From Deltaproteobacteria bacterium (GTDB lineage Bacteria > Lernaellota > Lernaellaia > JACKCT01), in assembly GCA_020845895.1 (NCBI GenBank), contig JADLEX010000125.1:1-49728 (forward strand): a stretch of 49,728 bases of DNA, given 5' to 3'. The notes under the pieces are model-generated. The model saw only the letters and a program-made list of their open reading frames with translations, searched no databases and had not been told where the DNA came from. The position numbers were made by a program, and so were the translations under genes. Position 1 is the first letter of the stretch, and every line of letters starts with the position of its first letter. Shown piece by piece: positions 2,633-48,452 of this stretch.

Positions 2633-4855
2633 GTGCAGCGCGAATCCGAACGGTTGTGGCAGACACTCGTCGCATTCTCGATGCTCGTCGCGTTTGCCGG
2701 TTGCGACTGCGGTGACAATGACGGCGATTCGCTTTCGTCGGATTCCGGCGCTACAGGCGACGACGACGCGACGGATGACGACACAGGCAACGACGATGCC
2801 GACGACGATACGTGGCCGCCGCTTCCGGACGACGACTCGGAAGATGACGACGCGGACGACGATGGGTTCGATCTCGAAGTCCACGATGCGCTGACCGCGG
2901 GGCCATCGGTCCTGCCGGGGGAGGTCGAGTCCTGCGCGATCATCGACCAGACCGAATGCCGCGGCGGCACCGAGCATGTCTGCGCGATCTACGACGCGGG
3001 CGCGGGCGATTTCACCGACGATCCGCCCGAATTCATCAAACGCATCTATCACCACGAGCGATACCACGATCTCCAGCACAAATCCGACAGCACGATGCTG
3101 ACGGTTCACACAACCGCCGGCATGCCGCCGGGCACCGACCGCGACGTGTGGAGCAATCCCGCCGCGTTCGAAGAATACGCCGACTGGGGCGACGGAGCGT
3201 ATTACGCGAGCATGGCGCTGTCCGCCGCGTCGCTGCGTTTCGCGGCCACCGGGACCGACGCCGATTACGCACGCATGGTCGATTACGCGAACACGCTTTT
3301 GCTCAACTGGCGCGTGACCGACGTGGCCGGCTACATGATCCGCTCGGTCGCGGCCATGCTCGACGACGGCGTGCCGATCCCGCCCGGCCACCCGGAATAC
3401 AATCTGCGCGAATACAAGGAACGCACGAACCACGTGCTCTACACCCTCGCGCCCGAACTGCACGACCTCGTGCCCGCGTATTATTACGAGGGCGCGGACC
3501 TCGACCACGACACCACGCCCGATCTCGCCACGACGCCGTTGCTCGAAGGCAGCCCGAGCCAGGACGCCTATTCCGCAGCGCTGGTCGGCATGCAGCTCGC
3601 GTACGATCTGCTGCGCGGCGAGCACCAGGCCCTGAAAGACGAGATCGCCGACAACGCGGTGTGCAACGTGACGCGCCTTCGCAAAATGCGCATCACGCAC
3701 CTGTCCGACAGCGCGCTGGGCCGCCTCGCCGTGCAGTACCTCACGTCGTCGGGCGGATTCCATCCGGATCCCGACGATATCGACCTGGACGGGATCGACA
3801 CGATGATCGGCTACGTGCAGGAGGCGCTGCCGCCGGGCGATCCCGGCGATTTCGAATACGGCTGCCCCGCGGACCCGCCGACCGAGGTCGATCCGAAATA
3901 CGATTGGGACGCGACCGATCCGCTGTTTCTGATTCGCATCGCGGACTTCGCGGCGAAGATGGCGGGCGAGGGCGATCACCCGATCGACTTCGTCTATTTC
4001 GTCTCGCACCGGGGCGGCGATGTGATCTACATGATCAACTACGCACTCTTCGCGTATCACGTCTCGGGCAACCCGAAATTTCTCGACTTCATCAAGAACC
4101 AGCTCATCGACGAGATCGACGGCCTCGCCGTACTCAACACCGCGGGGTCTTTTTTCTTAAATCCCTATTGCGGTTCGTGGATCGGCGGTGATCTTTCTCA
4201 CCCGGTCATGTACGCGACGCTGCTGCACATCGACGACGATCTGGTGGCCGCCGAGCACCAGCGGGCGATGCTCGAAGAGTTCAAAGACAAGATGTTCGAA
4301 AACGACAACAACGCGTATTTCGGCATGACCTACGCCGCCACGGTCGGCGACGATGTCGATCCGCTGGTGGACGACTACGGCGAATGGGCGGCCGGGGAGC
4401 TCGACGCTTACATGCTGAATGCGGATCACCCGCTCGATCCGAAACGCAACTACAGCACCGACTACGTGGCCAATCCGCTGGCGCCGCCCTACGATCCCTC
4501 GCCGCCCACCGACGACGAAATCGCCGAGTGCGAAGCGGGACTCGAACTCTTCGGCATCCCCATTGTGCCGGGACCCGGCGTCGATCCCGACTTCACGGTG
4601 CTCTCCCGCGAGCCGCTGCCGGTGGGGCTGCGCGTGCCGCACGATCTCATCTGGCACTTCTCGCCGTTCAACCTGAAACGCAATTGGGGCGCCAACGACG
4701 GGCGCTACCAGATGACCTTCCTCGATCTCACGCTGCCGTTCTGGATCGGCCGGTACCACGAACGCATCGATTCGGGCGAAGGCATGGCACTCGCGTGGAA
4801 GGATACCGGCGGGCCGTGCGACGTCAGGGACACGCCGGCAGCGCGTCGTCCGTAG
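2633..4855 (+). CDS. Asp-stalk lipoprotein with alpha/alpha-barrel-like domain
   Basis: A 740-aa protein of unknown function. It starts at GTG with AGAGG five bases upstream. Residues 1-24 form a lipoprotein signal ending in VAFAGC, so Cys24 is the predicted lipidation site. Residues about 25-80 are an Asp-rich low-complexity stalk (DDDATDDD type). The rest is a folded domain with helical, aromatic-rich segments such as WGDGAYYASMALSAASLRFA. These recall six-hairpin (alpha/alpha) glycosidase-like folds, but I recognise no family or catalytic residues. Its 3' end overlaps the 3' end of the opposite-strand lipase gene by 32 bases. Probably tethered to the cell surface or periplasmic membrane face. 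Confidence 0.8.
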   Translation: MQRESERLWQTLVAFSMLVAFAGCDCGDNDGDSLSSDSGATGDDDATDDDTGNDDADDDTWPPLPDDDSEDDDADDDGFDLEVHDALTAGPSVLPGEVESCAIIDQTECRGGTEHVCAIYDAGAGDFTDDPPEFIKRIYHHERYHDLQHKSDSTMLTVHTTAGMPPGTDRDVWSNPAAFEEYADWGDGAYYASMALSAASLRFAATGTDADYARMVDYANTLLLNWRVTDVAGYMIRSVAAMLDDGVPIPPGHPEYNLREYKERTNHVLYTLAPELHDLVPAYYYEGADLDHDTTPDLATTPLLEGSPSQDAYSAALVGMQLAYDLLRGEHQALKDEIADNAVCNVTRLRKMRITHLSDSALGRLAVQYLTSSGGFHPDPDDIDLDGIDTMIGYVQEALPPGDPGDFEYGCPADPPTEVDPKYDWDATDPLFLIRIADFAAKMAGEGDHPIDFVYFVSHRGGDVIYMINYALFAYHVSGNPKFLDFIKNQLIDEIDGLAVLNTAGSFFLNPYCGSWIGGDLSHPVMYATLLHIDDDLVAAEHQRAMLEEFKDKMFENDNNAYFGMTYAATVGDDVDPLVDDYGEWAAGELDAYMLNADHPLDPKRNYSTDYVANPLAPPYDPSPPTDDEIAECEAGLELFGIPIVPGPGVDPDFTVLSREPLPVGLRVPHDLIWHFSPFNLKRNWGANDGRYQMTFLDLTLPFWIGRYHERIDSGEGMALAWKDTGGPCDVRDTPAARRP

Positions 4856-6278
4856 GGCATTCGCCGCCGCCCATCGTCGCCCAGTCGATCGCGAAGCCGA
4901 CCGCCGCCGCCGGCAAGCCCATGTGATCGATGCCCGCCCACGCGCAGCTCTGCACGTCGATGCCCGCGGCGACCATGTCGTCATACAGGCACGCCTGCTC
5001 GACGGGCGTGCGCTGTACATCGTCGAGCCCTGAGATCATCAGCACCGGTGCGCCGTCCGAATCCATGGGCACGTCGTTTTCGGCGGTCCACTGCGTGTAC
5101 GCCGCCGCCCGCGCGGTGCAGTCGGCCGTGTCGTTCAGGCAGTCCACGACCTCTTCGCGAAACGCGGGCTCGACCATCTCGCCCACCGTATCCGGCGGCG
5201 TGTAATCCGCCGTCGGCGTCGCGAGCGTCGCCGTGATGCCGAACACGCACTGCGTTTCGATCGATTCGATCAACGCGTCGGCGATGTCCGGCTGATAAGC
5301 CTCGGCGACGTGATCCAGACCGAACAGATTGGCGAAGGCCGCATACAGCGCGAGGGCGACGACCACGCGGGTGACGCCCGCGCCGGTGTCGATGGGCCAG
5401 TTCGGCAGGCGGTACGCATTGGCGGAATTGCCGTCGGGATAGTCGCCCGCGAAAGCGATCGCGGCGACGAGTTCGAGGTCGGGCTCGCCGTCGATGGCCA
5501 TGCGCGCCTGCGTGCCGAGGGCCGCTCCGCCGCCCTGGCTGTGGCCCGTCACGATCACGCGGCCGTCGAGCGCGCCCGGCGTCGTCGCGCGAATCGCGGC
5601 GCGGGCCGCGTCGATCACGGAACGCACCGTGTCGGGCATGGAGCCGTAGCCCTGCGTGCCCTCGTTGCCCATGCCCGCGTAATCGGGCGCGATGACCGGC
5701 AGACCCGCCGCGACCCATGGAACGATCAGGTCATCGCTCGGGCGGAGCGTGGTGGACGGCGCGCAAAAGTCGGCGAGTCCCACGGTGCCGTGCGCGACGG
5801 CGACGATCGGGAGCGGTCCCGGCGCTGGCGAATCGGGCAGCAACAGGCGCGCGGTGCCGACGCCCGCGATGCCGTCGCGCCGCTCGGTGCGATATGCGAT
5901 GCGATACGAACGATAGCCGCTCGTCACCGTGATCCCGTCGATGTCGGCGAGTCGCTCGGCCACTGTTGCGGCGTCCACCGTTTCGTCGGGCGCGCAACGC
6001 ACGATCGCCCCGCGCTCGCCATCGTCAAAGGGCGGGAGGCTGCCGGGCGTGACATACACGTCGTCTTCAGAATCCACGCACGCGATGGCGAGATCCGGCG
6101 GCGGCGCATCGTCGTCCACGTCATCATCCGTCAAGTCGTCGTCGGAATCGTCGTCCGTGTCGTCGTCCGCGTCGTCGTCCACCGCCGCGCCGCGATCGTC
6201 CGATCCGCCATCCGACGCACAACCCATGACGGCGAGGTACGCAAACAGCAGGAGCAGGTGGGCGGTCTTCGTATTCAT
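4824..6278 (-). CDS. Asp-stalk lipoprotein, secretory lipase (LIP) family
   Basis: Predicted alpha/beta hydrolase of 484 aa acting on ester substrates outside the cytoplasm. Residues 1-20 are a lipoprotein signal with VMGC (Cys20). Residues about 30-58 are an Asp-rich stalk. The hydrolase domain has VAVAHGT (oxyanion region, about 160-165), nucleophile elbow GHSQGG with Ser247, an acid candidate in SGLDDVQRTP (Asp419/420) and His452 in GIDHMG. This triad layout matches the secretory lipase family known from fungi and actinomycetes. There is no clear ribosome binding site; TATCCT lies 10 bases before the ATG, suggesting a leaderless or very short leader. The gene overlaps the converging neighbour by 32 bases. 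Confidence 0.85.
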   Translation of the reverse strand: MNTKTAHLLLLFAYLAVMGCASDGGSDDRGAAVDDDADDDTDDDSDDDLTDDDVDDDAPPPDLAIACVDSEDDVYVTPGSLPPFDDGERGAIVRCAPDETVDAATVAERLADIDGITVTSGYRSYRIAYRTERRDGIAGVGTARLLLPDSPAPGPLPIVAVAHGTVGLADFCAPSTTLRPSDDLIVPWVAAGLPVIAPDYAGMGNEGTQGYGSMPDTVRSVIDAARAAIRATTPGALDGRVIVTGHSQGGGAALGTQARMAIDGEPDLELVAAIAFAGDYPDGNSANAYRLPNWPIDTGAGVTRVVVALALYAAFANLFGLDHVAEAYQPDIADALIESIETQCVFGITATLATPTADYTPPDTVGEMVEPAFREEVVDCLNDTADCTARAAAYTQWTAENDVPMDSDGAPVLMISGLDDVQRTPVEQACLYDDMVAAGIDVQSCAWAGIDHMGLPAAAVGFAIDWATMGGGECPTDDALPACP

Positions 6279-6802: not shown

Positions 6803-6894
6803 CCCCACTCCCTCTTTTCTGTCCGGGCCGGTGCGAACGCGTTTTATGGGTGATTTCACTCCGGATTGTCAAGAATCCGGCGAATGGAAAAGAG

Positions 6895-6918
6895 AACGCG
6901 GGCCGCAAGACCCGCGTT
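6895..6918 (-). terminator. Terminator-type hairpin after paralog 1
   Basis: AACGCGGG pairs with CCCGCGTT (8 bp) around an 8-base loop, 26 bases beyond the stop of the 6944 gene. On the minus strand it is followed by a pyrimidine-rich tail with TTTT. A closely similar hairpin follows paralog 2. Confidence 0.6.
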
Positions 6919-6943
6919 CGTTGTGTTTCCGGAAGGGGAGACG

Positions 6944-9262
6944 TCAGCAGCCGCAGCAGCCGCCGTCGTCATCGTCGTCGTCACCACCGCCATCGGCCGC
7001 GTCATCGTCGCCCGACGCGTCGTCGTCGCCCGCCGCGTCGTCGTCACCCGAATCATCGTCGGTGTCGTCGTCGCCCGCGTCGCCGATCAGATCGAGGGCG
7101 TCGGCCATCGAATCGAAGAGCGTGTCGGGGTTCACGACGCGCACGGCGTAGAGCCCTTCTCCCAAACCGCCGGGGACATTGGCGACCAGCGTTTCCGAGT
7201 CCGTGAACGTCACTTCTGAAATCTCGGTGTCGCCCACGAAGACCTTTGCGCCGACCGCGAAATTCTCGCCGGTGATTGTCACCGATCCGCCGGCAGGTTC
7301 CACCAATTCGCCCGGCTCGACCGCGACGATCTCGGGCTTCGCCGCGGGATTCTCGTCCATGAACAGCTGGAAGCGGTATCCCATTTCGATGTTGTCATAC
7401 TCGTTCCAGGCGATCGACACGCGGTCGTGACGCATCGAGCCGCGAATGTCGAACGGCCATTGCACGTAATCGCCGTTGTCGACGTCCACATCCCGCGCCA
7501 GCGTGGGACCTTCGATGATGTCGCCATCGTAACCCAGAATCGCGTACCAGATGTCCTGATCGTAGGACGTTCCGTTCTTGTCGTTGAACACCATCAGCAC
7601 GCCGCCGCCGTCGGGATTCGCGAACAGGTGCGGGTGCTGATAGTTCGTGCCGGGATCGACATTGGTCGCCGCCATCGCGACGCCGCTCGGGGCAACGGTG
7701 CTGAAGGTGAACACGTCGCCCACCGCGAAGTCCGTCCCGCCCGCCTCGATCTTGAACGCGACGGCTCCGGAATCGGAGCTGTACGCCGTTCCCGTTGTGG
7801 CGTCTTCATAGGTATCGTCCTCGGTTTCCACCGACCAGATCTCCGCACCGGGGGTCGAATCGTCCGTGCAGGTGAGCGTCCAGTTCCCCGCGGGGGCCGA
7901 CAGCGAAACGCGCACATCGGTCATCGTGCCATCGCCGGTATTGCCGCCGTCCGCGTCGGGCTCGACCGGCTCGGTGAGCGCCGATCCGTCGAACCCGTTC
8001 ACCGCCGGATCGAGGAGCATGACGAACAACTCCGTCTGCGATCCATCGGCCAGATAGGTCTGGAACGCGATCAGCACCCGTCCATCCGGCATCGTTTCAA
8101 TGGTCTGTCGTTTGACTTCCCCGTTGATGAACACGTCCGTCGGGGCGACCGTGTAGGAGCCGTCGGACGGATCGAACGCGAAATACGTGAGGACGTTGGC
8201 GTATTCGCCGATCCAGGGTTCGGAAACGACAAGCGTGTTCACGCCGTACGACGCGGCGGACACCTCGATATCGCCGCCGCCGTAGTTGGCCATGGTGCCG
8301 CTGTCCGAATCCCACACTTCTTCGATATCGGACCACGCCTTGGACACGGGCGACCCCGTGCGGTAACCGATCGTCATGTCCGTTTCGTCCTGATAGGCTT
8401 GCCCGTTTCGCCAGACGAGCAAGAGATCGTTGTTCGGCAGGACGGTGAACTTCGGATGGACCGAGATGACCGCGTCATCTTCGGAAACCGCTTCGTCGGC
8501 CGCCTCGGAGAGGATCGGACTCGCCGTCGTCGAGAACGTGAACTCGTCGCCGTCCGCGAACGGATCGCCACTCGTATCGATTCGGAACGACACTCGGTCG
8601 ACACGCGGATTATCCACATTGTAACTATAGCTGTCGGCGGGATACAGCACATCGTCCGTCGCGACGAGTTGGGTCCCGCTCACCGAGCCTTCCACGTCCC
8701 AATCCGTCGCGCCGCGGCTCACGGTCCAGTCTTCCGTACGCGTGACCATCGCGCCGCCCCAGACCTGGTCGATCGTGCCGTCGCCGGCGTTTCCGCCATC
8801 GGCGACGGGCGTCGTGGCGGTGGCGTTGGCGTCGCTGCCGTCCTGCGGATGCTGCGACGGATCGATGACGCCGATCAGCACCTCGCCCTCGCCCTGGTGC
8901 CAGACCACCGCGATGCGAGGATCGTCGCCGACGCCGTCCACGAATGCGACTTCCATGCGGGCGACCCACTGCCCGACCGTCAGGACCGTCTGATCGATCA
9001 GGATATTTCCTTCGGAATCCACCATGAAATACACCATCTGATCCCAGCCGGACCAACCCAGCTCAGCGGTGTCGTCCGCTTCCATCTTGTAAAACGCGTG
9101 GATGTTGCCGGACGGATCTTCCAGCAACGCGGGATGCGTATCCCCATCGGAGACCATGGAAGGGTCGGAATTCAGGGTCAGGACGTCCGCGCCGGCCGAA
9201 AGCGGCCCGCCGAACGCGAGCAAGGCCAACGTCACACACACAGCGATTCGCCACGCGGCCAT
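6944..9262 (-). CDS. Secreted repeat protein, C-terminal Asp tail and GGCCGC (paralog 1)
   Basis: A 772-aa exported protein of unknown function. The ATG at 9262 is preferred because GGGAG lies five bases upstream; a TTG lies four codons further out. The N terminus is a cleavable-type signal peptide without lipobox (about residues 1-25, ending near LSAGA). The body has propeller-like repeats (HPALLEDPSGNIHAFY, GNILIDQ). It contains two copies of an embedded module marked by DGGNxGDGT, a WT(L)T segment, GxxFxI and GDxFTFST. Near the C terminus is an IPT/TIG domain (ITGENFAVGAKVFVGD ... YAVRVVNPDTLF). The last 45 or so residues are Asp-rich and end in GGCCGC. A tandem paralog lies directly upstream. 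Probably a surface protein. Confidence 0.85.
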   Translation of the reverse strand: MAAWRIAVCVTLALLAFGGPLSAGADVLTLNSDPSMVSDGDTHPALLEDPSGNIHAFYKMEADDTAELGWSGWDQMVYFMVDSEGNILIDQTVLTVGQWVARMEVAFVDGVGDDPRIAVVWHQGEGEVLIGVIDPSQHPQDGSDANATATTPVADGGNAGDGTIDQVWGGAMVTRTEDWTVSRGATDWDVEGSVSGTQLVATDDVLYPADSYSYNVDNPRVDRVSFRIDTSGDPFADGDEFTFSTTASPILSEAADEAVSEDDAVISVHPKFTVLPNNDLLLVWRNGQAYQDETDMTIGYRTGSPVSKAWSDIEEVWDSDSGTMANYGGGDIEVSAASYGVNTLVVSEPWIGEYANVLTYFAFDPSDGSYTVAPTDVFINGEVKRQTIETMPDGRVLIAFQTYLADGSQTELFVMLLDPAVNGFDGSALTEPVEPDADGGNTGDGTMTDVRVSLSAPAGNWTLTCTDDSTPGAEIWSVETEDDTYEDATTGTAYSSDSGAVAFKIEAGGTDFAVGDVFTFSTVAPSGVAMAATNVDPGTNYQHPHLFANPDGGGVLMVFNDKNGTSYDQDIWYAILGYDGDIIEGPTLARDVDVDNGDYVQWPFDIRGSMRHDRVSIAWNEYDNIEMGYRFQLFMDENPAAKPEIVAVEPGELVEPAGGSVTITGENFAVGAKVFVGDTEISEVTFTDSETLVANVPGGLGEGLYAVRVVNPDTLFDSMADALDLIGDAGDDDTDDDSGDDDAAGDDDASGDDDAADGGGDDDDDDGGCCGC

Positions 9263-9327
9263 GAAAACTCCCAAGGGTGAAGGTTTTTCGGTCTCAAGAA
9301 CGATATTCTAGATTGGCGGATGAAAAA

Positions 9328-9345
9328 CATGATCCGCGCCATATT
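9328..9345 (-). promoter_or_regulatory. Conserved 18-base upstream element, copy 1
   Basis: The plus-strand sequence CATGATCCGCGCCATATT lies 66 bases upstream of the paralog 1 start. It differs at only two positions from a block at almost the same distance upstream of paralog 2. The ATGA...CAT ends make it partly dyad-symmetric. TAGAAT on the minus strand (9305-9310) could be the -10 box downstream of it. Confidence 0.5.
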
Positions 9346-9396
9346 CTCCCCTTCGCACCGTCGAAATTGGTCAAGGCGAACGAAGGGCTCAAACGC

Positions 9397-9424
9397 CGAA
9401 CGCGGGCCGCAAAGCCCGCGTTCG
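9397..9424 (-). terminator. Terminator-type hairpin after paralog 2
   Basis: CGAACGCGGGC and GCCCGCGTTCG form a perfect 11-bp stem with a six-base loop, 23 bases beyond the stop of the 9448 gene. The T-run is short. The hairpin core is shared with the one after paralog 1. Confidence 0.65.
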
Positions 9425-9447
9425 AAGTATTTCGGAATTGTGGGACG

Positions 9448-11790
9448 TCAGCAGCCGCAGCAGCCGCCGTCGTCATCGTCGTCGTCATCACCGCCATCGG
9501 ACGCGTCGTCGTCGCCGGACGCGTCGTCGTCGCCGCCCGCGTCGTCGTCCGAATCGTCGTCCGAATCGTCGTCCGAATCGTCGTCGCCTGACGTCACGAT
9601 CGTGAGCGCGTCGTCGAGCGTGCCGAAGAGCGTGTCGGGGTTCACCACACGCACCGCGTAGGTGCCCTCGCCGATCCCGGCGGGGACGGTGGCCGTGAGA
9701 TTCTCGGCGTCGGTGAACGTGACGGCCGTGGCTTCGTTGTCTCCGACGAACACCGCCGCTCCATCGACGAAGTTTTCGCCGACGACGGCGATGTCGCCGC
9801 CGGTCGCGTCGTCGAGTTCGGCCGGCGTCACCGAGGTGACGATCGGCGCATCGGCAGGGATGTCGCTGAGGAATAGTTGGTGCTTCAGGCCGCTCGTGAC
9901 GCCGTCGTTCTCGTTCCACATCAGGATGACCTGATCGTGGGCCATCGAACCACCCATGTCGTACGGCCATTCCATGACATCGAGGTCGCCGTCGTTGTCG
10001 ATATTGGCGGCCTGCGTCGGCTCTTCGATCTGCGCGCCGTCGTAGCCGTAGATCGCGTAATACGGCTGGTTTTTGCCGGCGTTGTCGTCATCCTTGTGCA
10101 GAACGGCGAGCAGGATGCCGCGCCCGCCGGGGTTCATGTAGAGGCGCGGGTGGTGCATGACTTGACCGTCGTCCACGGCCGTCGGGCCCGACACCACGGC
10201 GGTCGAGGCGGTCGTCGAGAAGGTGAACGTGTCACCCACGGCGAAGTCCGTGCCGCCCGCCTCGATCACGAAACTGATCGCGCCCGAATCGGTGAAGTAG
10301 TAAATGCCGGTCTCCGCGTCCTCATACGTATCGTCCTCGGTCTCGACGGACCAAATTTCCGAGCCGGCTGTCGTGTCGTCGGTGCAGGTCACGGTCCAAT
10401 TCGCCGTGGGCGCGATGAGCGAGGTTAACACGTCGGACATCGTGCCGTCGCCGGTGTTGCCGCCGTCCGCGTCGGGCACGACATCGGGCGTCAGCGTGTC
10501 GCCGTTCAGGCCACCCGCCGCCGGATCGAACACCATTGTGTAGGTGTCGGTCAGGCTGTCGCCGATCATGTAAGATTGAAACGCCACGAGCACATTGCCG
10601 TTCGGCAGATTCACGAATGATCGACGTTTCGCCTTGTCGTTCATGAACACATACGTGCGGGCGACGACTGGGTCGAAGGTTCCGGATTCCACTCGTTCGT
10701 AGGAATGGAGTTCGATCGCATTGCCGTCGTTATCTCCCAGATAATCGGGGACGACAGTGTACATGAAATCCAGGTAATCCCCCGTGACCGAAACCTGGAA
10801 ATCACCGCCGCCGTAATCGGCGTAACCGCCCGCCGACGGCGTTTCACTGATGGTCTGGGTTGCGCCGAACGACTTGGAGAAGTCGCCGAAGCGACCGACG
10901 ATCGCCTGATCGGCGCCTTCGTCATACGTGTCGCCGTAACGCCACAACACGCCCAGTTCGCCCGACGGCATGTGGACGAACTGGCCGTGAACGTCGCGGA
11001 ATGCGTCGCCGTCATCCGAGAACGGATCCTTCGTCGCCTGCACGAGAATGGGGCTGGCCGTGACGGAGAACGTGAACTTGTCGCCGTTCACGAACGCATC
11101 ACCCGAAGGCGTGATATAAAAGGCCACCGGATCGGCATCGAGAAACGAGCCGGAGGTGCTTTCCGCGTCGTAGGGGTACCAGTAGTCGGTGTCCGCACGG
11201 CTGTCGAGCTCTCCGGAGACGGAACCCGTGACGCCCCAATCCGTCCCGTCGAATTCCACGTCCCAGTCCTCGGTCGGCGCGGCGAGCATGCCCGGCCAAA
11301 CCTCGTCGATCGATCCGTCGCCGGTGTTGCCGCCGTCCGCCGCGGGCGTCGTCGCCGTCGCGTTTGCGTCGCTGCCGTCCATGGGATGCAGATAAGGATC
11401 GATGATCGCAAGCTGAATCTCGCCGACGCGCTGGTGGTACAGGATGGCGATTTCGGTGCTCGCCCATGTCGGATCGATCGGCGCCATTTCCGCACGACCG
11501 GCGCGACGGCCGACCGTCAAGAACGTCTTGTCGATGAGGATGTTTCCTTCCGAATCGGTCATATAGTAGACGAGCATGTCGTCCGTGCCCCATCCATCTT
11601 CCACGCTGCTGTCGAGCTTCGTCAGGATGTGGATGTTGCCGTTGGCATCTTCCAACACGCGCGTGTGCATGTAGCCGTAGCTGTTGCTCTCGTCATCGGG
11701 GTTGAGCGTGATGACCGCCGCCATCGAGCTGCTGGCCAGCAGGGCCACCAGGACGCACACAAATCCCAGCGCAAAACTCCTCATCCGCAT
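9448..11790 (-). CDS. Secreted repeat protein, C-terminal Asp tail and GGCCGC (paralog 2)
   Basis: A 780-aa exported paralog of the downstream gene with the same order of parts. It has a signal peptide (about residues 1-26, ending SSSMAA), propeller-like repeats and two embedded DGGNTGDGT...GDxFTFS modules. These are followed by an IPT/TIG domain (VVGENFVDGAAVFVGD ... YAVRVVNPDTLF), an Asp-rich tail and the terminal GGCCGC. The ATG at 11790 is chosen because GAGGAGG lies nine bases upstream; an ATG two codons later is also possible. Hydrophobic membrane segments are absent after the signal peptide, so the protein should be released or held by its C-terminal cluster. Function is unknown; the pair presumably arose by tandem duplication. 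Confidence 0.85.
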   Translation of the reverse strand: MRMRSFALGFVCVLVALLASSSMAAVITLNPDDESNSYGYMHTRVLEDANGNIHILTKLDSSVEDGWGTDDMLVYYMTDSEGNILIDKTFLTVGRRAGRAEMAPIDPTWASTEIAILYHQRVGEIQLAIIDPYLHPMDGSDANATATTPAADGGNTGDGSIDEVWPGMLAAPTEDWDVEFDGTDWGVTGSVSGELDSRADTDYWYPYDAESTSGSFLDADPVAFYITPSGDAFVNGDKFTFSVTASPILVQATKDPFSDDGDAFRDVHGQFVHMPSGELGVLWRYGDTYDEGADQAIVGRFGDFSKSFGATQTISETPSAGGYADYGGGDFQVSVTGDYLDFMYTVVPDYLGDNDGNAIELHSYERVESGTFDPVVARTYVFMNDKAKRRSFVNLPNGNVLVAFQSYMIGDSLTDTYTMVFDPAAGGLNGDTLTPDVVPDADGGNTGDGTMSDVLTSLIAPTANWTVTCTDDTTAGSEIWSVETEDDTYEDAETGIYYFTDSGAISFVIEAGGTDFAVGDTFTFSTTASTAVVSGPTAVDDGQVMHHPRLYMNPGGRGILLAVLHKDDDNAGKNQPYYAIYGYDGAQIEEPTQAANIDNDGDLDVMEWPYDMGGSMAHDQVILMWNENDGVTSGLKHQLFLSDIPADAPIVTSVTPAELDDATGGDIAVVGENFVDGAAVFVGDNEATAVTFTDAENLTATVPAGIGEGTYAVRVVNPDTLFGTLDDALTIVTSGDDDSDDDSDDDSDDDAGGDDDASGDDDASDGGDDDDDDDGGCCGC

Positions 11791-19328: not shown

Positions 19329-20690
19329 TTACGGCGAGACGGATCTGGTCAGCCAGTCATCCCAGATGGCTGCGGAGACTTTCGGATTATGTTCGTAATC
19401 CAGTATCCCCATGGACCCCCACGCCAACCAAGCGGAAAGCCAGCCCGGCCCCATCGCGTCCATGACGTCGTAGATCGCGCACCACTCCAAACCGTAGTCG
19501 CACGGGCATTCGGCCAGAACCCCGTCCGGCAGGAAATCGACGAGCGACCACCACACGACGAGATCGGCGTGGGCGGTTTCGGCCTCCGCGAGCAGGAAGT
19601 CGAGGAAGCCCGACTCGTCGGCATCGTCAAAAACGAAGAGCGGCGTGCACACGTCGTCGATCGGCTGCGTGATCGCACGATTCGACTGCCCGGTTTCGGC
19701 GATCATGATCCGCTCTCCGGTCGCCATCGCGACATCGGCGAAAAGTCCCTCGGGCGGATGCTCCGGGTCGTCGACGAAAAACATGGGATAAGCGCTCAGG
19801 GCCATCCGGTCGCGCTTCACGTCCCCGATCGTCGCGAGCTGCGCGTCGAGGCAACTGTGGTCCAGCAACTCGCAGGGACCGAAAGCACCCGTGTCCCAGA
19901 GCTGCTCGAGCACGAAGGTGGGGAAGATCGGGATTTCCGGGGCGAGTTCGCGCGCTTCGTCGTACAAGTCGTTGGCGAAGTCGATCAGCGCGCCGTATCC
20001 CTCTTCGCAAAAGTGATCGAACAGGTTCAATTCGATGACGTGCGTGAAAAAATCGGGCTCAAACAGGTCGATCATGTACGCCATGTAGTTGGCGTACGCG
20101 GTGCGGTAGCGCGCGGCGTCGGGCGCGGCGGCGAAATCGTAACACGGGTCGTTCCAGTCCGCGACCGTAATGAGACGGCCCTCACCGTCCACGTCGGGGT
20201 ACGGCGCGAGCCCCGTGCGGTTGCCGTCGAGCGGCGTCAAGGACAGGTAGATCGGCACGCCGAGCGCCTCCACGACGCTCTTCGCCGCGTTCATGGTGTC
20301 GATCCACACCTGCGGTGGGTCCTCGCCGTCGGCAAACTCTTCCCACGGCACACCGAAGAACGAATCCATGTGCAGCGAGACCGCATCCACGCGTCCGTCG
20401 AATCCCGCGAAGTCGAATACGGTTTCCACGTGGTACGGTTCGATTTGGTACTGCATCGGCGCGGCGGCCATGCGGAAGGGCCGCGTGGGCCCGGCGTCGT
20501 CACCCGAGTCGTCATCCGAATCGTCATCCGCAACATCGTCGTCGATGAGGTCGTCGTCCGCGTCATCGTCTTCGGAATCGTCGGTCGGCGAGGTGTCGTC
20601 GTCTCCCGAATCTCCGCCCGAACACGCGACGCACGCCGACAGCAGAAAGATGACGGCGAGACTCAAAGCACGAAGGACGAGGCGATTCAT
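19329..20690 (-). CDS. Asp-stalk lipoprotein, TIM-barrel glycosidase-like
   Basis: A 453-aa lipoprotein. Residues 1-20 end in a classic lipobox (LSAC, Cys20). Residues about 24-62 form the Asp-rich stalk (DDDADDD units). The remainder looks like a (beta/alpha)8 glycoside hydrolase-type domain: strand-like segments VDAVSLHMDSFF, PIYLSLTPLD, HVIELNLFDHF and ERIMIAETGQSN, and a late LVVWWSLVDF. The acidic residues ending the ELNLF and IAETG strands sit where clan GH-A enzymes such as GH53 place catalytic glutamates. That is inference from layout, not a confirmed family. No strong ribosome binding site is present; TAAGAT lies six bases before the ATG. Confidence 0.72.
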   Translation of the reverse strand: MNRLVLRALSLAVIFLLSACVACSGGDSGDDDTSPTDDSEDDDADDDLIDDDVADDDSDDDSGDDAGPTRPFRMAAAPMQYQIEPYHVETVFDFAGFDGRVDAVSLHMDSFFGVPWEEFADGEDPPQVWIDTMNAAKSVVEALGVPIYLSLTPLDGNRTGLAPYPDVDGEGRLITVADWNDPCYDFAAAPDAARYRTAYANYMAYMIDLFEPDFFTHVIELNLFDHFCEEGYGALIDFANDLYDEARELAPEIPIFPTFVLEQLWDTGAFGPCELLDHSCLDAQLATIGDVKRDRMALSAYPMFFVDDPEHPPEGLFADVAMATGERIMIAETGQSNRAITQPIDDVCTPLFVFDDADESGFLDFLLAEAETAHADLVVWWSLVDFLPDGVLAECPCDYGLEWCAIYDVMDAMGPGWLSAWLAWGSMGILDYEHNPKVSAAIWDDWLTRSVSP

Positions 20691-20808: not shown

Positions 20809-22536
20809 CTAGAACAGACCGGTGAGGTCGAGGTTCGTCCACAGGTTCACGGCCGAGATGTCAAAGGACATGACGTCGAGCGGGTTGTAGTCGTCACCGT
20901 CGAAGCCGTCGGGCATGGACGCGCCGACCACGACCACGATGTCCGCGGCGGACGGAGCGGCGCACGCGCCCTCGGGCACCACGAACGAGGTGTCGGTGCC
21001 GGGCACCTGGGCCAGGAGCTGCTCGCACGAGGTGTCATCCGGCACGTAGATGATCTGATACACGTCGGGCGTGTCGCCGGACTCGAGCGCCCACTCGATG
21101 GTCGAGGTCGCCTCGTCCCACGAGCAGTTGCCGCTGTCGAACGCGGGCAGGAAGTCGGCGCCGCCGTCGAACGAAACGCCGCCGGTGAACTCGTCGATGC
21201 TCTCGGCGTACTTGATCGCGAACGAGAAGTTCGCGCTTGTGAAGCCGGACTGGAGCAGGTCGGTGGCGCCCAGGACCGCCATGTAGTCGGCGTTCGGCAC
21301 GTCGGCGTAATCGACCGCCGTGGAGCCGCTGTCGACGATGCCGATGCCCAGGGGCAGCAGCGCGCGGTTCGGGATTTCCGCCGCGAGGATGGCGAGGTAA
21401 TCGTAGTCGCCATCGGCGTTGGCGAGGTTGACGTCGAGCTCGGCCTTGGCCTGCGTGTCCTGCACTTCGATGTCGGGAGCACCCGTGCCGTCCCAATCGG
21501 GAACCGCGCCCGCATAGGAGAACGACATGCCGTCGTTGATCAACGGCGTCACGAGCGGCGCGATGCAGGTGAGGATGTCGGGCTCGGTCCCGATGCAGGC
21601 GATCAGGTCGGTGATTGCGCCAAGGTCGCTGAGGATCGAGCTGATGAGCACCTGGATCACGAAGCCTTCGATCGGACTCGTGGTGGCGTCGCCGTTGACC
21701 GGCACGACGTACTGCTCGTTCTCGCCGCTGGCTTCGAAAACGCCGGGAATGGCGAGGTTGAGGTTCGGCAGATACACGTTGGCCGGAATCTCGGTGACCT
21801 CGGGGCCGTCGCCGGTGTCGAGGGTCAGGTCGAAGTTCGAGCCCGCGAGCAGGCCGTAGAAGTCCGTGTAAAGGATCGACTCGCGGGAGACGCCCGGGAG
21901 CGCGACGCCCAGCGTGACCGGGGTCGAGAAGAGCTGGAGCAGGTTCGGGTTCGTCAGACCGAGCGGCGTGCCGCCTTCGGTGAAGTCGCCGGGGTCGGAG
22001 TCGGTGTAGCTGGCCGTCGAGTTGCACTTCAGGCGGAACACCATGGTGGCGGCGTCGGCCTTGTACGACCAGGACCAGCAGTCGGTCGCGGTCGCCGTCA
22101 CAGTCTGGGCCGCGTCGACGATCGCCAGTTCGGCCATGCCGTCGGAATCGGTGGTGTCGGTCGCGTCGCCGTCATTGAGAATCACGGTCGCGTTCTCGAT
22201 TGGGTCGCACGACAGGTCGTCGTACACGTACACGGTGATCGTCGAGCCGATCGCGCCGCCGCTCACGCCCGCGGGCTGCGTGGTGTCGCACACGAGCGAG
22301 TCGTACTCGACATCGGCGTCGTCGTCGGTCGTGTCGTCGTCGGTGGTATCGTCGTCGGTGGTGTCGTCATCGGTGGTGTCGTCGTCGGTCGAATCATCGT
22401 CGGTCGAATCGTCGTCGGTGGCGTCGTCGTCCGCCGGCGCGCTGTCGTCGTCGTCATCGTCGTCACCGCAACCGCAACCGGTCGCGAAGGCGAACATGGC
22501 GATCGCCAGCATCAGGATGAACCATTTTTCCTTCAT
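20809..22536 (-). CDS. Asp-stalk lipoprotein with CarboxypepD_reg-like domain
   Basis: A 575-aa lipoprotein of unknown function. The start is fixed by GGAAGGGAG six bases upstream of the ATG at 22536. Residues 1-21 are the lipoprotein signal (FATGC, Cys21), directly followed by GCG and poly-Asp. Residues 36-75 are eight five-residue DDDxT-type repeats. Residues about 85-165 resemble a carboxypeptidase-regulatory or Ig-like fold (PIENATVILNDGDATDTTD). The rest is a beta-rich region with paired Cys and no recognised enzyme motif. The gene ends with a strong intrinsic terminator and lies divergent from the C25 peptidase gene. Probably surface-exposed on a flexible acidic stalk. Confidence 0.82.
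   Translation of the reverse strand: MKEKWFILMLAIAMFAFATGCGCGDDDDDDDSAPADDDATDDDSTDDDSTDDDTTDDDTTDDDTTDDDTTDDDADVEYDSLVCDTTQPAGVSGGAIGSTITVYVYDDLSCDPIENATVILNDGDATDTTDSDGMAELAIVDAAQTVTATATDCWSWSYKADAATMVFRLKCNSTASYTDSDPGDFTEGGTPLGLTNPNLLQLFSTPVTLGVALPGVSRESILYTDFYGLLAGSNFDLTLDTGDGPEVTEIPANVYLPNLNLAIPGVFEASGENEQYVVPVNGDATTSPIEGFVIQVLISSILSDLGAITDLIACIGTEPDILTCIAPLVTPLINDGMSFSYAGAVPDWDGTGAPDIEVQDTQAKAELDVNLANADGDYDYLAILAAEIPNRALLPLGIGIVDSGSTAVDYADVPNADYMAVLGATDLLQSGFTSANFSFAIKYAESIDEFTGGVSFDGGADFLPAFDSGNCSWDEATSTIEWALESGDTPDVYQIIYVPDDTSCEQLLAQVPGTDTSFVVPEGACAAPSAADIVVVVGASMPDGFDGDDYNPLDVMSFDISAVNLWTNLDLTGLF
22312..22431 (-). repeat. Eight tandem 15-bp units encoding the DDDxT stalk
   Basis: The coding DNA repeats a 15-base unit eight times (DDDAT, DDDST twice, DDDTT four times, DDDAD), with GTCGTC runs on the plus strand. 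Near-identity of several units makes slippage and length variation likely. Confidence 0.85.
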
Positions 22537-22958
22537 CTCGTACTCCCTTCCGTAAAACGGTGTTCGGGGTTTCGTGCGGCGCATCGCGCCGCGAACCGGG
22601 AAAGTGGGTTTGGAATTACATGGGAACTCTGGAGCCGATTCCGGGACATCGGGCACACGTGGCCGCACCTCCTTGGCGTACGGTTCAACGGGTTGTCGTT
22701 AGCCCCAGGAAAATGGCGGATGGCGCATCATTCAAGTGACTCGACTATCCGCCCCCCATGGAGAAAAGTCAAGAAAGATCTGAAGGTGAGGACCGGCGGA
22801 AATCTCGAATTCCCGGCCCGCGCTGCGGATTTCGTCCGGGGCTTTCGGGATCTCACGCGAACGACGACGAAACTTCACGCGTCCGACGCCGGGGCCGATA
22901 TCGACGCGGTGCGATGCGCCGCATGTTCTCGCGCCTCCCGCGCGGTATAATGCCACCC
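22537..22958. other. 422-base divergent intergenic region
   Basis: Lies between two divergently transcribed exported-protein genes. It holds a 7-bp hairpin GCGGCGC/GCGCCGC (22576-22592) in the leader of the minus-strand gene. A spaced inverted repeat GGCGGAT/ATCCGCC lies at 22715-22721 and 22747-22753. TATAAT (22946-22951) sits directly before the plus-strand gene. I see no supported coding sequence in it. Confidence 0.6.
22946..22951 (+). promoter_or_regulatory. -10 box at leaderless distance from the C25 peptidase gene
   Basis: A perfect TATAAT ends seven bases before the ATG at 22959, and no ribosome binding site is present. The expected transcription start would coincide with the start codon. 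The -35 region (ATGTTC) is poor. Confidence 0.5.
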
Positions 22959-43381: not shown

Positions 43382-45973
43382 TCATAGATGGTCGGGCAGG
43401 TCCATTTTCCAATCGCTCATGAGGATCAAAATGCCTTCAACGATCTCGCCGTTGTTGACCAGCTCCAATTCGCCGACCGGCGTAACGTCGTCCCACTGAA
43501 AATGGTTCGAAAGGAACGACAACGTCTCGCGTTTGTAGGCCGTGTCAAGATTGTCGAGCTGATCACCTTTGGTCTCCAGCACCGTGATCCGCCTGGTCCC
43601 GCCTTCCCGCTGCACCGCAAAGATAAAGTCCGGATAGATTTTGGCTTTTTTCCACCCCTGAATGCCGTACTGGGTCCGTGCGACATTGCGGTGCCACCAA
43701 GCCAGCGTTTGTTCGCCATCGAGGTACACGGCCACATCCCGCTCGTCGGGATTCATCTCGTTTTCGTAGATCGGTGAGAAGAGGCTCTTTTCGAGTGGAC
43801 CGCCCGCCCGGTTCAAGAGTTGGCGTGCGTTCTCCGGTTCTGTTGTCTCGATGCTGAAAGGCATCCTCCAGTTGCGACCGTCGAGCCGGAGGCGGAACTG
43901 AATCCGCCCGGCGGCGACTTCGGCCTTGAACAGCTCTTCGGCGCGCGCGTTGCGCGCGGCATCGAGCCCTTTGCGCAACTCTTCGACAATCAGGCTGGCG
44001 AGCCGGCCGATCTTGACATCATCGAAACCTCGCGCCCCGAGTGTCGCGACCATCGCCCCGACAATCTCGCGCCCGACGAAAGGATTCAGAACAATGTCGG
44101 ATATCATCCGGACAGCATGGGACGGATCGAAGGCGAGGGTCTCCGCGTTCGCTGCCACCGTTTCGCCGATGAACAGCTCGTCGCCGTCATCCGCGAGCCT
44201 GATCCTCTGTAGCTGACTCTCCGCCGCCTGTGCGTTCTCCGGAACACGCTCCGCGATTTCCCGGGGATCAAAACCCCGCCAATCGACAGCACTGAGCACA
44301 TCCGTCTCGTAGTCCAACTCGCGCGCCTCGCCGTTCTCCACCACCATGACCTTGGGCAGGTAGATTTTAGTGGCGGCAAGAGCGGGGCGTCGCTTGATCG
44401 AACGGGCCGTCTTGCCTATCCCGCTCATATCGCCCTGCGTCACGCGTAGAACCAGATCGCCGAGACCGTCCTGTTCAAGACCTTCTTTGACCGCACCGAC
44501 AACAGACGCAGTATCGGCATGGTGCGTGATGACGTGGCATTCATCAAGCGTGTCCACGCCCGTCTTGAGCGCGCCGGGTTGCCGAAGAATGCGGCCGACG
44601 AGTTGCGTCATGGCTTTCAGGTTGGCGCTGGCCGCAAGGCTGCACAGCACATAGGCGAAAGGACAGTCCCAACCTTCCTGAAGAGCCTGCTTCGTGATGA
44701 TCGCACGGACGCGATTCGTCGACGACAAAAGGTCTTGGTTCTCGGGATCGTTCAGGTCGTTTTGCTCTGCGGTTTTAATCGCGATTTCCGCCTGATCGAA
44801 ACCGGCCGTCAGGAGCCAGTCCTTGACGTGTTCGGCATGGATGTGGTCGCTCCCGCGTTGACTCTCGCCCGTTCGCTCGACTTGGATCAACATGATTGGC
44901 CGGATGTAGCGGTTCGTGTCGGCGCGCAATTTCCGGGCATCGGCATCGAGAGCGTTAAGCTTGCTCAGCGCCTCATTCAGCGTTGCCTTCCAGTCAGTGC
45001 CCTGCCGGGGATTGAGGTTGAGCGGCATTTTGATCATGCCTTCCCGGTCCAGTTCGCGCCCCGTCACCTCAACGAGCACGTTGGCGTAGCGGCCTTCACG
45101 CGGACTGCGTCCACCGCGCGGCTGCACGTCTTGCGGCGTGGCCGTTAGTTCCAGCACAAAGCAGGGATTGAAGCCGTAAAGCGTACCGAATGCGAGATCG
45201 GAAATTGCCCGGTGCCCTTCATCCAGAACCACAACGGGTCGGATGCTCCGCAGGGCATTCCCAAGCGAATCCTTCACCATCGGAAATATGTCTCTGTAGG
45301 CGTCGAGATTCGGTGTGCGTTCTATCGCGGCCCTGTGCGCTTGTTGCTCGCCTTCAGGCGGAAAGAAGCCGTGAACGTCGCCGCGGTCCTGAAACATCTT
45401 GAGGGTTTCCTGCGTCACGCGATTCGCGGATTGCAGCATCAGCAGCATGATGCAGAGGTGTGTCTCCACGTCCCGCGCATCGAGCCGGTCCGCCTTTTCC
45501 ATGATCTTCACGCGACCCGCCGCTGCACGGTCGAGCGCCTGTCGGTAGGGGTGCTGGCGATCCTTCAGGTGCTTGAGCGTCTGCGTATAGATGGCCTCGT
45601 TCGGCACGATCCACAGGACGAAGCCGGTGTTCCGGTTGAGATAGCGGCCCAACATCCGAGAGACGGCCGAAACGGCAAGCCATGTCTTGCCGCCGCCGGT
45701 CGGCACCTTGAGCAACGCATTGGGCACGGGCCTGTTGCATCCGTCCATGCGCGGCGAAAAAGGAATTTCCGCACGAGAGTTGGGGAGTCGCCCCGCCGCC
45801 TTCAGCCCGTCCCAAGCTTCCTTGGCGAAATCCGGGATGGCAAGGCCGAGGTCCGGGTCTTCCGCCGCAAGCGCGGCAACCTTGTCCGCGCGTGCCTTTT
45901 TTTCTTTCAGAAGATCAAGGTAGGCTTCGAGCGTCGAGATCACGCGGTCTTGATAGTCGAGCCGGCGAAACAC
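43382..45973 (-). CDS. res: Type III restriction enzyme, Res subunit
   Basis: The ATP-dependent translocase/nuclease of a type III restriction-modification system, 863 aa. Superfamily 2 motifs are PTGGGKT (91-97), LDEGHR (250-255), LTATP (276-280) and QLVGRILRQP. The C-terminal nuclease has the PD-(D/E)xK pattern, with Pro781-Asp782 and Glu800-Thr-Lys802 (ETK). The start is GTG at 45973. GGAG lies eight bases upstream, and the product begins FRRLDYQDRV, typical for Res. It lies four bases after the Mod stop, so the two are translationally linked. No frameshift or truncation is visible, so the system looks intact. Confidence 0.95.
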   Translation of the reverse strand: MFRRLDYQDRVISTLEAYLDLLKEKKARADKVAALAAEDPDLGLAIPDFAKEAWDGLKAAGRLPNSRAEIPFSPRMDGCNRPVPNALLKVPTGGGKTWLAVSAVSRMLGRYLNRNTGFVLWIVPNEAIYTQTLKHLKDRQHPYRQALDRAAAGRVKIMEKADRLDARDVETHLCIMLLMLQSANRVTQETLKMFQDRGDVHGFFPPEGEQQAHRAAIERTPNLDAYRDIFPMVKDSLGNALRSIRPVVVLDEGHRAISDLAFGTLYGFNPCFVLELTATPQDVQPRGGRSPREGRYANVLVEVTGRELDREGMIKMPLNLNPRQGTDWKATLNEALSKLNALDADARKLRADTNRYIRPIMLIQVERTGESQRGSDHIHAEHVKDWLLTAGFDQAEIAIKTAEQNDLNDPENQDLLSSTNRVRAIITKQALQEGWDCPFAYVLCSLAASANLKAMTQLVGRILRQPGALKTGVDTLDECHVITHHADTASVVGAVKEGLEQDGLGDLVLRVTQGDMSGIGKTARSIKRRPALAATKIYLPKVMVVENGEARELDYETDVLSAVDWRGFDPREIAERVPENAQAAESQLQRIRLADDGDELFIGETVAANAETLAFDPSHAVRMISDIVLNPFVGREIVGAMVATLGARGFDDVKIGRLASLIVEELRKGLDAARNARAEELFKAEVAAGRIQFRLRLDGRNWRMPFSIETTEPENARQLLNRAGGPLEKSLFSPIYENEMNPDERDVAVYLDGEQTLAWWHRNVARTQYGIQGWKKAKIYPDFIFAVQREGGTRRITVLETKGDQLDNLDTAYKRETLSFLSNHFQWDDVTPVGELELVNNGEIVEGILILMSDWKMDLPDHL

Positions 45974-45977
45974 CGCG

Positions 45978-47831: not shown

Positions 47832-48011
47832 GCCGGACCCTTCCTCAAGCCGTCTCACGCAACGGGCGGTCTTTTCGCGTTTGCCGTTTATAGAACGAGA
47901 TCAACCGAAATTCAAACCGACCGGGAGTGCTGCGAGATGCTAGAAGGGGCAAGTCCCGAATTTGCCGGGGACACGATGCCGAGCAGGCCGATCGACCGCG
48001 ATCGGGAAGCA

Positions 48012-48065: not shown

Positions 48066-48452
48066 TTAGACGCAGAAGTTCGTGAAGCACTCGGTGCCGC
48101 AGGGGCTGAACTCTTCGCACGAGCCGCCCGCGTTGTAGGCGTCGCCGCACGCACACAGGCAGTCGGTGTAGCCTTCGGCGCACGACTCCCAGTAGCTTTC
48201 CGAGAAGCCCATGCACTCGTCCACGCTCGCGAACCCGTCGCACTCGACGGTGATTTCGCACATCGATTCGGGCGTGCACGCGGCATCGTCGTCATCGGCC
48301 GCGTCGTCATCCGCGTCGTCATCCGTGTCGTCGTCGGCGTCGTCATCGGCCGCATCGTCATCATCGTCGTCATCGTCGTCGCCGCAGGCGACCACGCTAC
48401 CCGCCGCCAACATCAGCGACGCGGTGAGCAGGAGCATCCAGAACGCTTTCAT
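48066..48452 (-). CDS. Small Cys-rich Asp-stalk lipoprotein
   Basis: A 128-aa lipoprotein. The signal ends in VVAC (Cys23), followed at once by GDDDDDDDDD and DDDA/DDDT units to about residue 56. The remaining 70 or so residues contain 12 Cys, consistent with a compact disulfide-bonded domain (CTPESMC, TDCLCAC, PCGTECFTNFC). GGAGG lies six bases before the ATG. I recognise no family. It sits between the type III restriction-modification genes and the penicillin acylase gene, with its own terminator-type hairpin. The stalk makes up about a quarter of the protein. Confidence 0.85.
   Translation of the reverse strand: MKAFWMLLLTASLMLAAGSVVACGDDDDDDDDDAADDDADDDTDDDADDDAADDDDAACTPESMCEITVECDGFASVDECMGFSESYWESCAEGYTDCLCACGDAYNAGGSCEEFSPCGTECFTNFCV

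Follow-up and report, generated by a model that had tools for sequence, protein, structure and literature searches.

Two tandem genes for secreted paralogs in the window (the whole stretch of DNA analysed, 49,728 nucleotides) end in an Asp-rich stretch, the hexapeptide GGCCGC and a stop codon, and they raise the question of whether this ending is a C-terminal tag that anchors proteins and, if so, by what means. The original prediction, made from the letters of the DNA, claimed an Asp-rich stretch of about 30-40 residues followed by terminal GGCCGC in both proteins, with no hydrophobic helix or basic tail. Both points hold for the pair: the stretches are 37 and 40 residues long, and both ORFs finish with DDDDDDGGCCGC and a stop directly behind the Cys. 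The features of the two genes are given below.

6944..9262, minus strand: secreted paralog 1, with a beta-strand-rich body, a C-terminal IPT/TIG-like domain, an acidic stalk and GGCCGC
9188..9262, minus strand: signal peptide of paralog 1 (MAAWRIAVCVTLALLAFGGPLSAGA), type I, without lipobox
6965..7075, minus strand: Asp-rich stalk of paralog 1, 37 residues
6947..6964, minus strand: terminal GGCCGC of paralog 1, with stop codon TGA at 6944-6946
6887..6919, minus strand: terminator-like GC hairpin and T-run 3' of paralog 1, read by eye
9448..11790, minus strand: secreted paralog 2, with an IPT/TIG domain and a fold model
11719..11790, minus strand: signal peptide of paralog 2 (MRMRSFALGFVCVLVALLASSSMA), type I, without lipobox
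9469..9588, minus strand: Asp-rich stalk of paralog 2, 40 residues
9451..9468, minus strand: terminal GGCCGC of paralog 2, with stop codon TGA at 9448-9450
9398..9423, minus strand: terminator-like GC hairpin 3' of paralog 2, read by eye

The most plausible starts are 11790 and 9262, the latter set at the Met preceding the signal peptide of paralog 1. The paralogs are 51% identical, the terminator-like hairpins lie 25-30 nt from the stop in both, and the DNA downstream of paralog 1, read by eye, contains no coding sequence continuing past the stop. The structure model of paralog 2 (mean pLDDT 71.6) is beta-rich with a disordered tail, and its better-fitting structure matches are polysaccharide-lyase propellers (7drq, Uly1; TM-score 0.51 by target length), which are too weak to suggest an activity. 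Relatives of the paralog body were sought in other genomes and none were found. The window's own genome contains another tandem pair from this beta-rich family (G000:C74:4900-10930, L070), and both of its proteins also end in GGCCGC.

The same ending was sought in the genome to which the window belongs (G000; 4.98 Mb, 99.5% complete) and in six other genomes (G001-G006) of GTDB phylum FEN-1099, which has been equated with Ca. Lernaellota or Ca. Podoxiota (PMC11382960, PMC13248872). In a whole-genome pattern search, GCCGC followed by a stop (GGNTGYTGYGGNTGYTRR) occurs at 11 sites in G000, against none for the reversed-pattern control, and all 11 are the C-termini of secreted-looking, mostly unrelated proteins; the stalk upstream is Asp-rich in ten of them and consists of a Thr-rich linker with a short Asp run in the other. 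Sites of the form GCGC-stop (GGNTGYGGNTGYTRA) number 34 in G000 (control 3), 44 in G001 (control 1), 40 in G002 (2), 52 in G004 (3), 66 in G005 (4) and 33 in G006 (6). The fewest tags are found in G003, with eight such sites (control 1), of which two of the four that were read are real. Nearly all of the GCGC-stop sequences that were read carry an Asp stalk, and a chance origin is ruled out by the reversed-pattern controls. In an unbiased sample from two genomes, G000 and G002 (1.6 Mb; 1,324 genes from a simple gene caller), CGC is the commonest C-terminal tripeptide in each, and Asp-rich tails end with Cys in 11/15 cases in G000 and 16/26 in G002. The predicted tag is therefore real, but its ending is wider than GGCCGC: the core is G-C-(C)-G-C-stop. 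CGC is invariant among 50 aligned members, as a result of how they were selected. Two or three cysteines per tag are usual, nearly always arranged as CxC or CCxC, and the variants include GCSC, RCGC, GCGCGC, GCCG, GCCGS, GCGGC, MCA and CNCSK, in which 0 to 3 residues follow the last Cys; GCSC, GCCG and GCNCSK are among the rare ones, as are the single-Cys forms GGMCA and WCA. One G000 protein (G000:C47:13887-15833) ends in GGCCGCGDNGKDD, the tag signature plus seven hydrophilic residues, and is homologous to stop-form tagged proteins. Long Thr-rich stretches, which resemble glycosylated linkers, often lie upstream of the Asp stalk (e.g. L071, L134).

The search proposed with the original prediction, for the same ending in this and related genomes, returned well over 100 proteins; with tails removed beforehand, the 123 that were collected fall into 42 blastp similarity clusters. 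The condition named for refuting the prediction, that the ending is shared by no further protein, is thereby contradicted. Their domains include subtilase, peptidases C25 and M14, trypsin, arginine deiminase and beta-galactosidase, as well as N-acetylglucosaminidase, glycerophosphodiesterase, Kelch, FG-GAP, PKD and TIG. Signal peptides, which were also to be looked for, are of type I in 15 of the 18 tag candidates from G000, compared with 169 of 565 other genes of that genome. The lipobox in the signal peptide that marks N-terminal lipoproteins is not a feature of tagged proteins (0/16 by a strict pattern in the G000 sample, 2/21 in G002), and the mutual exclusion of lipobox and tag in G000 alone is not significant given the background rate (p 0.24). 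As a short motif common to many unrelated secreted proteins with signal peptides, the tag belongs to the general kind of C-terminal protein-sorting signal. Beyond the phylum, a scan for DDDxGCGC-stop across 84,980 species, a set that may leave out close relatives of the window, gave 20 matches: 12 in FR_14, a MAG of the FEN-1099 lineage, and eight singletons elsewhere. Of those eight, seven are apparently spurious reading frames and the other is an unrelated protein with a Cys-rich end; the scan found the tag on no comparable protein outside FEN-1099. A search of 379 genomes from other phyla found none with DxGCCGC-stop. The tag is genuine and present throughout the phylum; no earlier description of it was found, and a mention in the in silico study predicting myxosortases (cited in PMC11980579) is possible.

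Selection acts on the peptide and not on the DNA, since the 67 GCCGC tags are spelled in about 30 different DNA versions, and TGA, TAA and TAG all serve as stop codons among 102 tagged genes (79, 14 and 9, respectively). A helix with basic residues lies past the stop, in any frame, in only three of those 102 genes, and there it is apparently the start of the next gene. The varied spellings and stop codons and the near-absence of a downstream helix show that the ending is not a repeat, a readthrough or selenocysteine product, or a sequencing frameshift. The view that there is no functional tag, and that the ending arose from a DNA repeat or from an assembly error (for example a frameshift that truncates MYXO-CTERM tags), could appeal to the runs of Asp codons as repetitive DNA; it is nevertheless already refuted by these counts and by the presence of the tag in seven independent assemblies, with a GCCGC control of zero in G000, and retains next to no probability.

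The question then becomes how the ending relates to known sorting signals. In the myxosortase literature, the C-terminal sorting signals named for prokaryotes are built of three parts and require a protease. MYXO-CTERM is made up of a Cys signature (generic GCGC), followed by a helix and then an Arg-rich end; the helix is removed by myxosortase, which requires the Cys for cleavage, and the Cys has been proposed to be lipidated beforehand, Lgt being the leading guess for an acyltransferase that was not identified in that work (PMC11980579). The stop-form tag shares with MYXO-CTERM (TIGR03901; MrtX, CPBP family) its place on secreted proteins, a Cys signature behind a disordered linker, tens of copies per genome and a type II secretion system (T2SS) in the genome. 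In contrast, it has neither transmembrane helix nor Arg tail, and the chain ends at the Cys. Two stop-form tails gave no match to TIGR03901, and in G000 there are no matches either to that model or to PF02517, the CPBP protease family to which myxosortases belong; the stop form must therefore work without the protease in that genome. GlyGly-CTERM/rhombosortase, PEP-CTERM/exosortase, JDVT-CTERM and Synerg-CTERM are likewise C-terminal sorting signals on secreted proteins, but they are three-part, with helix and basic residues, and protease-dependent, whereas the stop-form tag is neither. The original prediction was thus correct that the helix and Arg-rich end of MYXO-CTERM are lacking, but not in setting the two apart, as the signatures are alike and full tags occur in sister genomes. 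True three-part MYXO-CTERM tags are found there behind the same Asp stalk, for instance DDDDDDDDGCGCVIGGGADGAGLAFAMLALGLAALAVSLRKKR in G005 and DDDDDGCGCSVTSGKASGFALPVGMLAIGILAFGLGLRRSR in G002, and both of these tails pass the TIGR03901 cut-off of 20 bits (25.9 and 22.2 bits). The myxosortase-core protease model Mrt_core exceeds its cut-off in G002, G004, G005 and G006 and is just below it in G003 (98.8 of 100 bits), and sister genomes having myxosortase still employ the stop form for most tags. No true ortholog pairs of transmembrane form and stop form were found, the matches being at the level of domains. Judged by its letters, the stop form resembles a MYXO-CTERM signature terminated at the point of cleavage by the protease, and we infer that evolution ran from MYXO-CTERM to the stop form. 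G005 and G002 also encode tandem small Cys-rich proteins with true three-part MYXO-CTERM tags, outside Myxococcota (L250, L254, L255, L257), some of them behind Asp stalks.

The strongest indirect evidence for what the tag does comes from lipoproteins in which the same elements appear in reverse at the N-terminus. The original prediction had counted six proteins with an N-terminal lipobox and Asp stalk in the window; such proteins are indeed there, although they number five:

2633..4855, plus strand: N-terminal lipobox, mature end CDCGDND, Asp stalk
4824..6278, minus strand: N-terminal lipobox (VMGC), then Asp stalk, with a secretory-lipase-like body
19329..20690, minus strand: N-terminal lipobox and Asp stalk
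20809..22668, minus strand: lipobox, mature end CGCGDDDDDDD, the reverse of DDDGCGC
48066..48452, minus strand: lipobox, mature end CGDDDDDDDDD

The sample holds 56 Asp-stalk lipoproteins, with the stalk placed after the lipobox Cys. The mature N-terminus of 13 of these begins with C-x-C, compared with 1 of 56 stalkless lipoproteins (p 0.0009), so that CGCGDDD at one end mirrors DDDGCGC at the other. Moreover, one G000 contig encodes both arrangements on homologous bodies (33% identity over 430 residues, E 7e-62): C36:31068-32675 has a signal peptide, the body, the stalk and GCGC, and C36:60898-62502 has a lipobox Cys22, the stalk and then the body. The latter is also matched by C-tagged relatives from other genomes of the phylum. 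The predicted reversal of the lipobox and Asp-stalk anchor is borne out by these bodies anchored at either end and by the mirrored C-x-C-G-D-D-D, which together suggest that the tag fulfils the role of a lipid anchor. Tagged proteins and stalked N-terminal lipoproteins (lipobox, Lgt, LspA) thus have in common a Cys next to an Asp-rich stalk and homologous bodies, but the tag would anchor at the C-terminus, with no lipobox and no LspA-type cleavage, and the lipid there is only proposed.

By sequence, a tagged protein consists of a Sec-type signal peptide, a varied body, a disordered Asp-rich stalk and a Gly/Cys cluster exactly at the stop. The ending is likely to be an anchor, and the best account of how it anchors is a lipid on the Cys, which is somewhat more probable than not. 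On the reading that is favoured with fair confidence, the ending is a C-terminal surface-anchoring signal whose terminal Cys is lipidated after export, without cleavage, the protein being surfaced by the T2SS. Sec export would come first, and the terminal cysteine(s) would then be lipidated, as proposed for MYXO-CTERM and its Cys signature; with the stop codon immediately after the signature, there would be no helix to cut and no myxosortase would be needed. The lipid would hold the protein in the membrane, and the T2SS, whose secretin is present in 7/7 genomes and offers a plausible route, may carry it to the cell surface, where the acidic stalk would act as a spacer. In the most tentative step, the lipid may be added by one of two phylum-specific Lgt paralogs. 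Counting against a lipid anchor are two G002 proteins that carry lipobox and tag together, and the lack of a helix, which leaves the C-terminus with nothing obvious to keep it near a membrane enzyme. The missing ortholog pairs of transmembrane form and stop form, the predominance of the stop form in sister genomes having myxosortase, the non-significant exclusion of lipobox by tag in G000, and the Lgt neighbourhoods and extra Lgt copies of other phyla described below also tell against this reading.

All seven genomes of the phylum encode three Lgt copies; most of 112 genomes of other phyla have one, and at least three copies occur in 5/112. Lgt-A, which is regarded as the ordinary enzyme, lies within a same-strand run of genes that also encodes an LspA-like signal peptidase. 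Lgt-B (7/7 genomes) and Lgt-C (6/7) form a phylum-specific clade (support 100/98). Lgt-B belongs to the Lgt family (PF01790), aligns to E. coli Lgt 5azb (E 5.7e-16) and has Arg at the GRLGN and EFFR sites. Both Arg sites of the E. coli enzyme are thereby matched, and we take them to be catalytic. Lgt-C is absent from G003, the genome with the fewest tags, which is a single case; that genome also encodes an Lgt of GNFxNSE type that is divergent and long-branched (L136, G003:C8). The neighbourhoods of Lgt-B and Lgt-C contain no consistent tag gene and nothing informative; in G001, one tagged gene is located some 600 bp from Lgt-C. For the co-occurring processing enzyme that the original prediction proposed to look for, Lgt-B or Lgt-C is put forward as a tentative candidate, somewhat less probable than not; no gene neighbourhood ties either copy to the tag. 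It is conceivable, with somewhat less than even probability, that the phylum has a second class of bacterial lipoprotein, Sec-exported and lipidated on an encoded C-terminal Cys by a phylum-specific Lgt paralog, without cleavage or helix, and derived from MYXO-CTERM by deletion of the part that myxosortase removes.

Other chemistries have been considered for the cysteines. They could anchor or assemble the proteins through disulfide or thioether cross-links to surface proteins or matrix instead of a lipid, as might be expected from the two or three cysteines in near-constant CxC or CCxC spacing, the many Cys-rich secreted proteins of the same genomes and the want of a lipid-transfer enzyme directly tied to the tag. 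This is unlikely, however, in view of the homologous bodies that exchange the C-terminal tag for a lipobox anchor, the rare variants with a single Cys, and the nearest known signature, the GCGC of MYXO-CTERM, for which lipidation has been proposed (PMC11980579). The acidic stalk and Cys cluster, rich as they are in Asp and Cys, might alternatively bind metal ions as a metal-binding or redox tail, but such a tail would leave the strict position at the stop codon, the N/C mirror and the likeness to MYXO-CTERM unexplained, and is improbable.

Enzymes of the MNIO family (PF05114) recognise C-terminal motifs on diverse proteins, large ones included (PMC12636315), and the tag resembles the motifs that they modify (DAG-RiPPs) in being a conserved C-terminal motif across diverse proteins. 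Oxidative remodelling of the cysteines by such an enzyme has in its favour that MNIO enzymes act on motifs of this kind and that one lies 1.6 kb from Lgt-C in G002; nevertheless, PF05114 has no match in six of the seven genomes, the nearly complete G000 among them, and this absence largely refutes the idea for the phylum, leaving it barely credible. The G002 locus itself (G002:C6:103035-106182; L130, L354), found in one genome only, is a possible RiPP-lipoprotein link. The ending might also be an outer-membrane secretion signal, for the T2SS or another route, with the protein then released and the cysteines bound, oxidised or removed. The secretin in every genome would suit this, as would the gingipain-type C25 and other tagged enzymes that elsewhere bear secretion C-terminal domains, but the mirrored N-terminal Asp-stalk anchor on homologous bodies favours attachment over release. 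To our knowledge no T2SS substrate carries a short linear C-terminal tag, which counts further against this reading, and its probability is put low, between those of cross-linking and of metal binding. Eukaryotic Rab/CAAX proteins carry a prenylated Cys pair or CxC at the extreme C-terminus and are cytosolic, whereas the tagged proteins are exported by a Sec signal peptide, and the likeness serves as a lead only.

If the ending is indeed a lipidated anchor, a phylum-wide tag cut down to the Cys signature would show that a signal can be recognised and modified without a helix and without being cleaved. This bears on the question, raised for myxosortase, of which enzyme modifies the invariant Cys (PMC11980579): a kept Cys signature, a lost protease and three Lgt copies, two of them in a private clade, would amount to a natural experiment pointing to enzymes. 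The tag further suggests a means by which dozens of proteases and glycosidases may be displayed in this uncultured phylum, to which some authors ascribe polymer degradation (PMC13248872). Elsewhere in the window, at its low-GC end, a DNA methylase (N6_N4_Mtase) adjoins a Res-type helicase (43382-47858), and the pair is a probable type III restriction-modification system.
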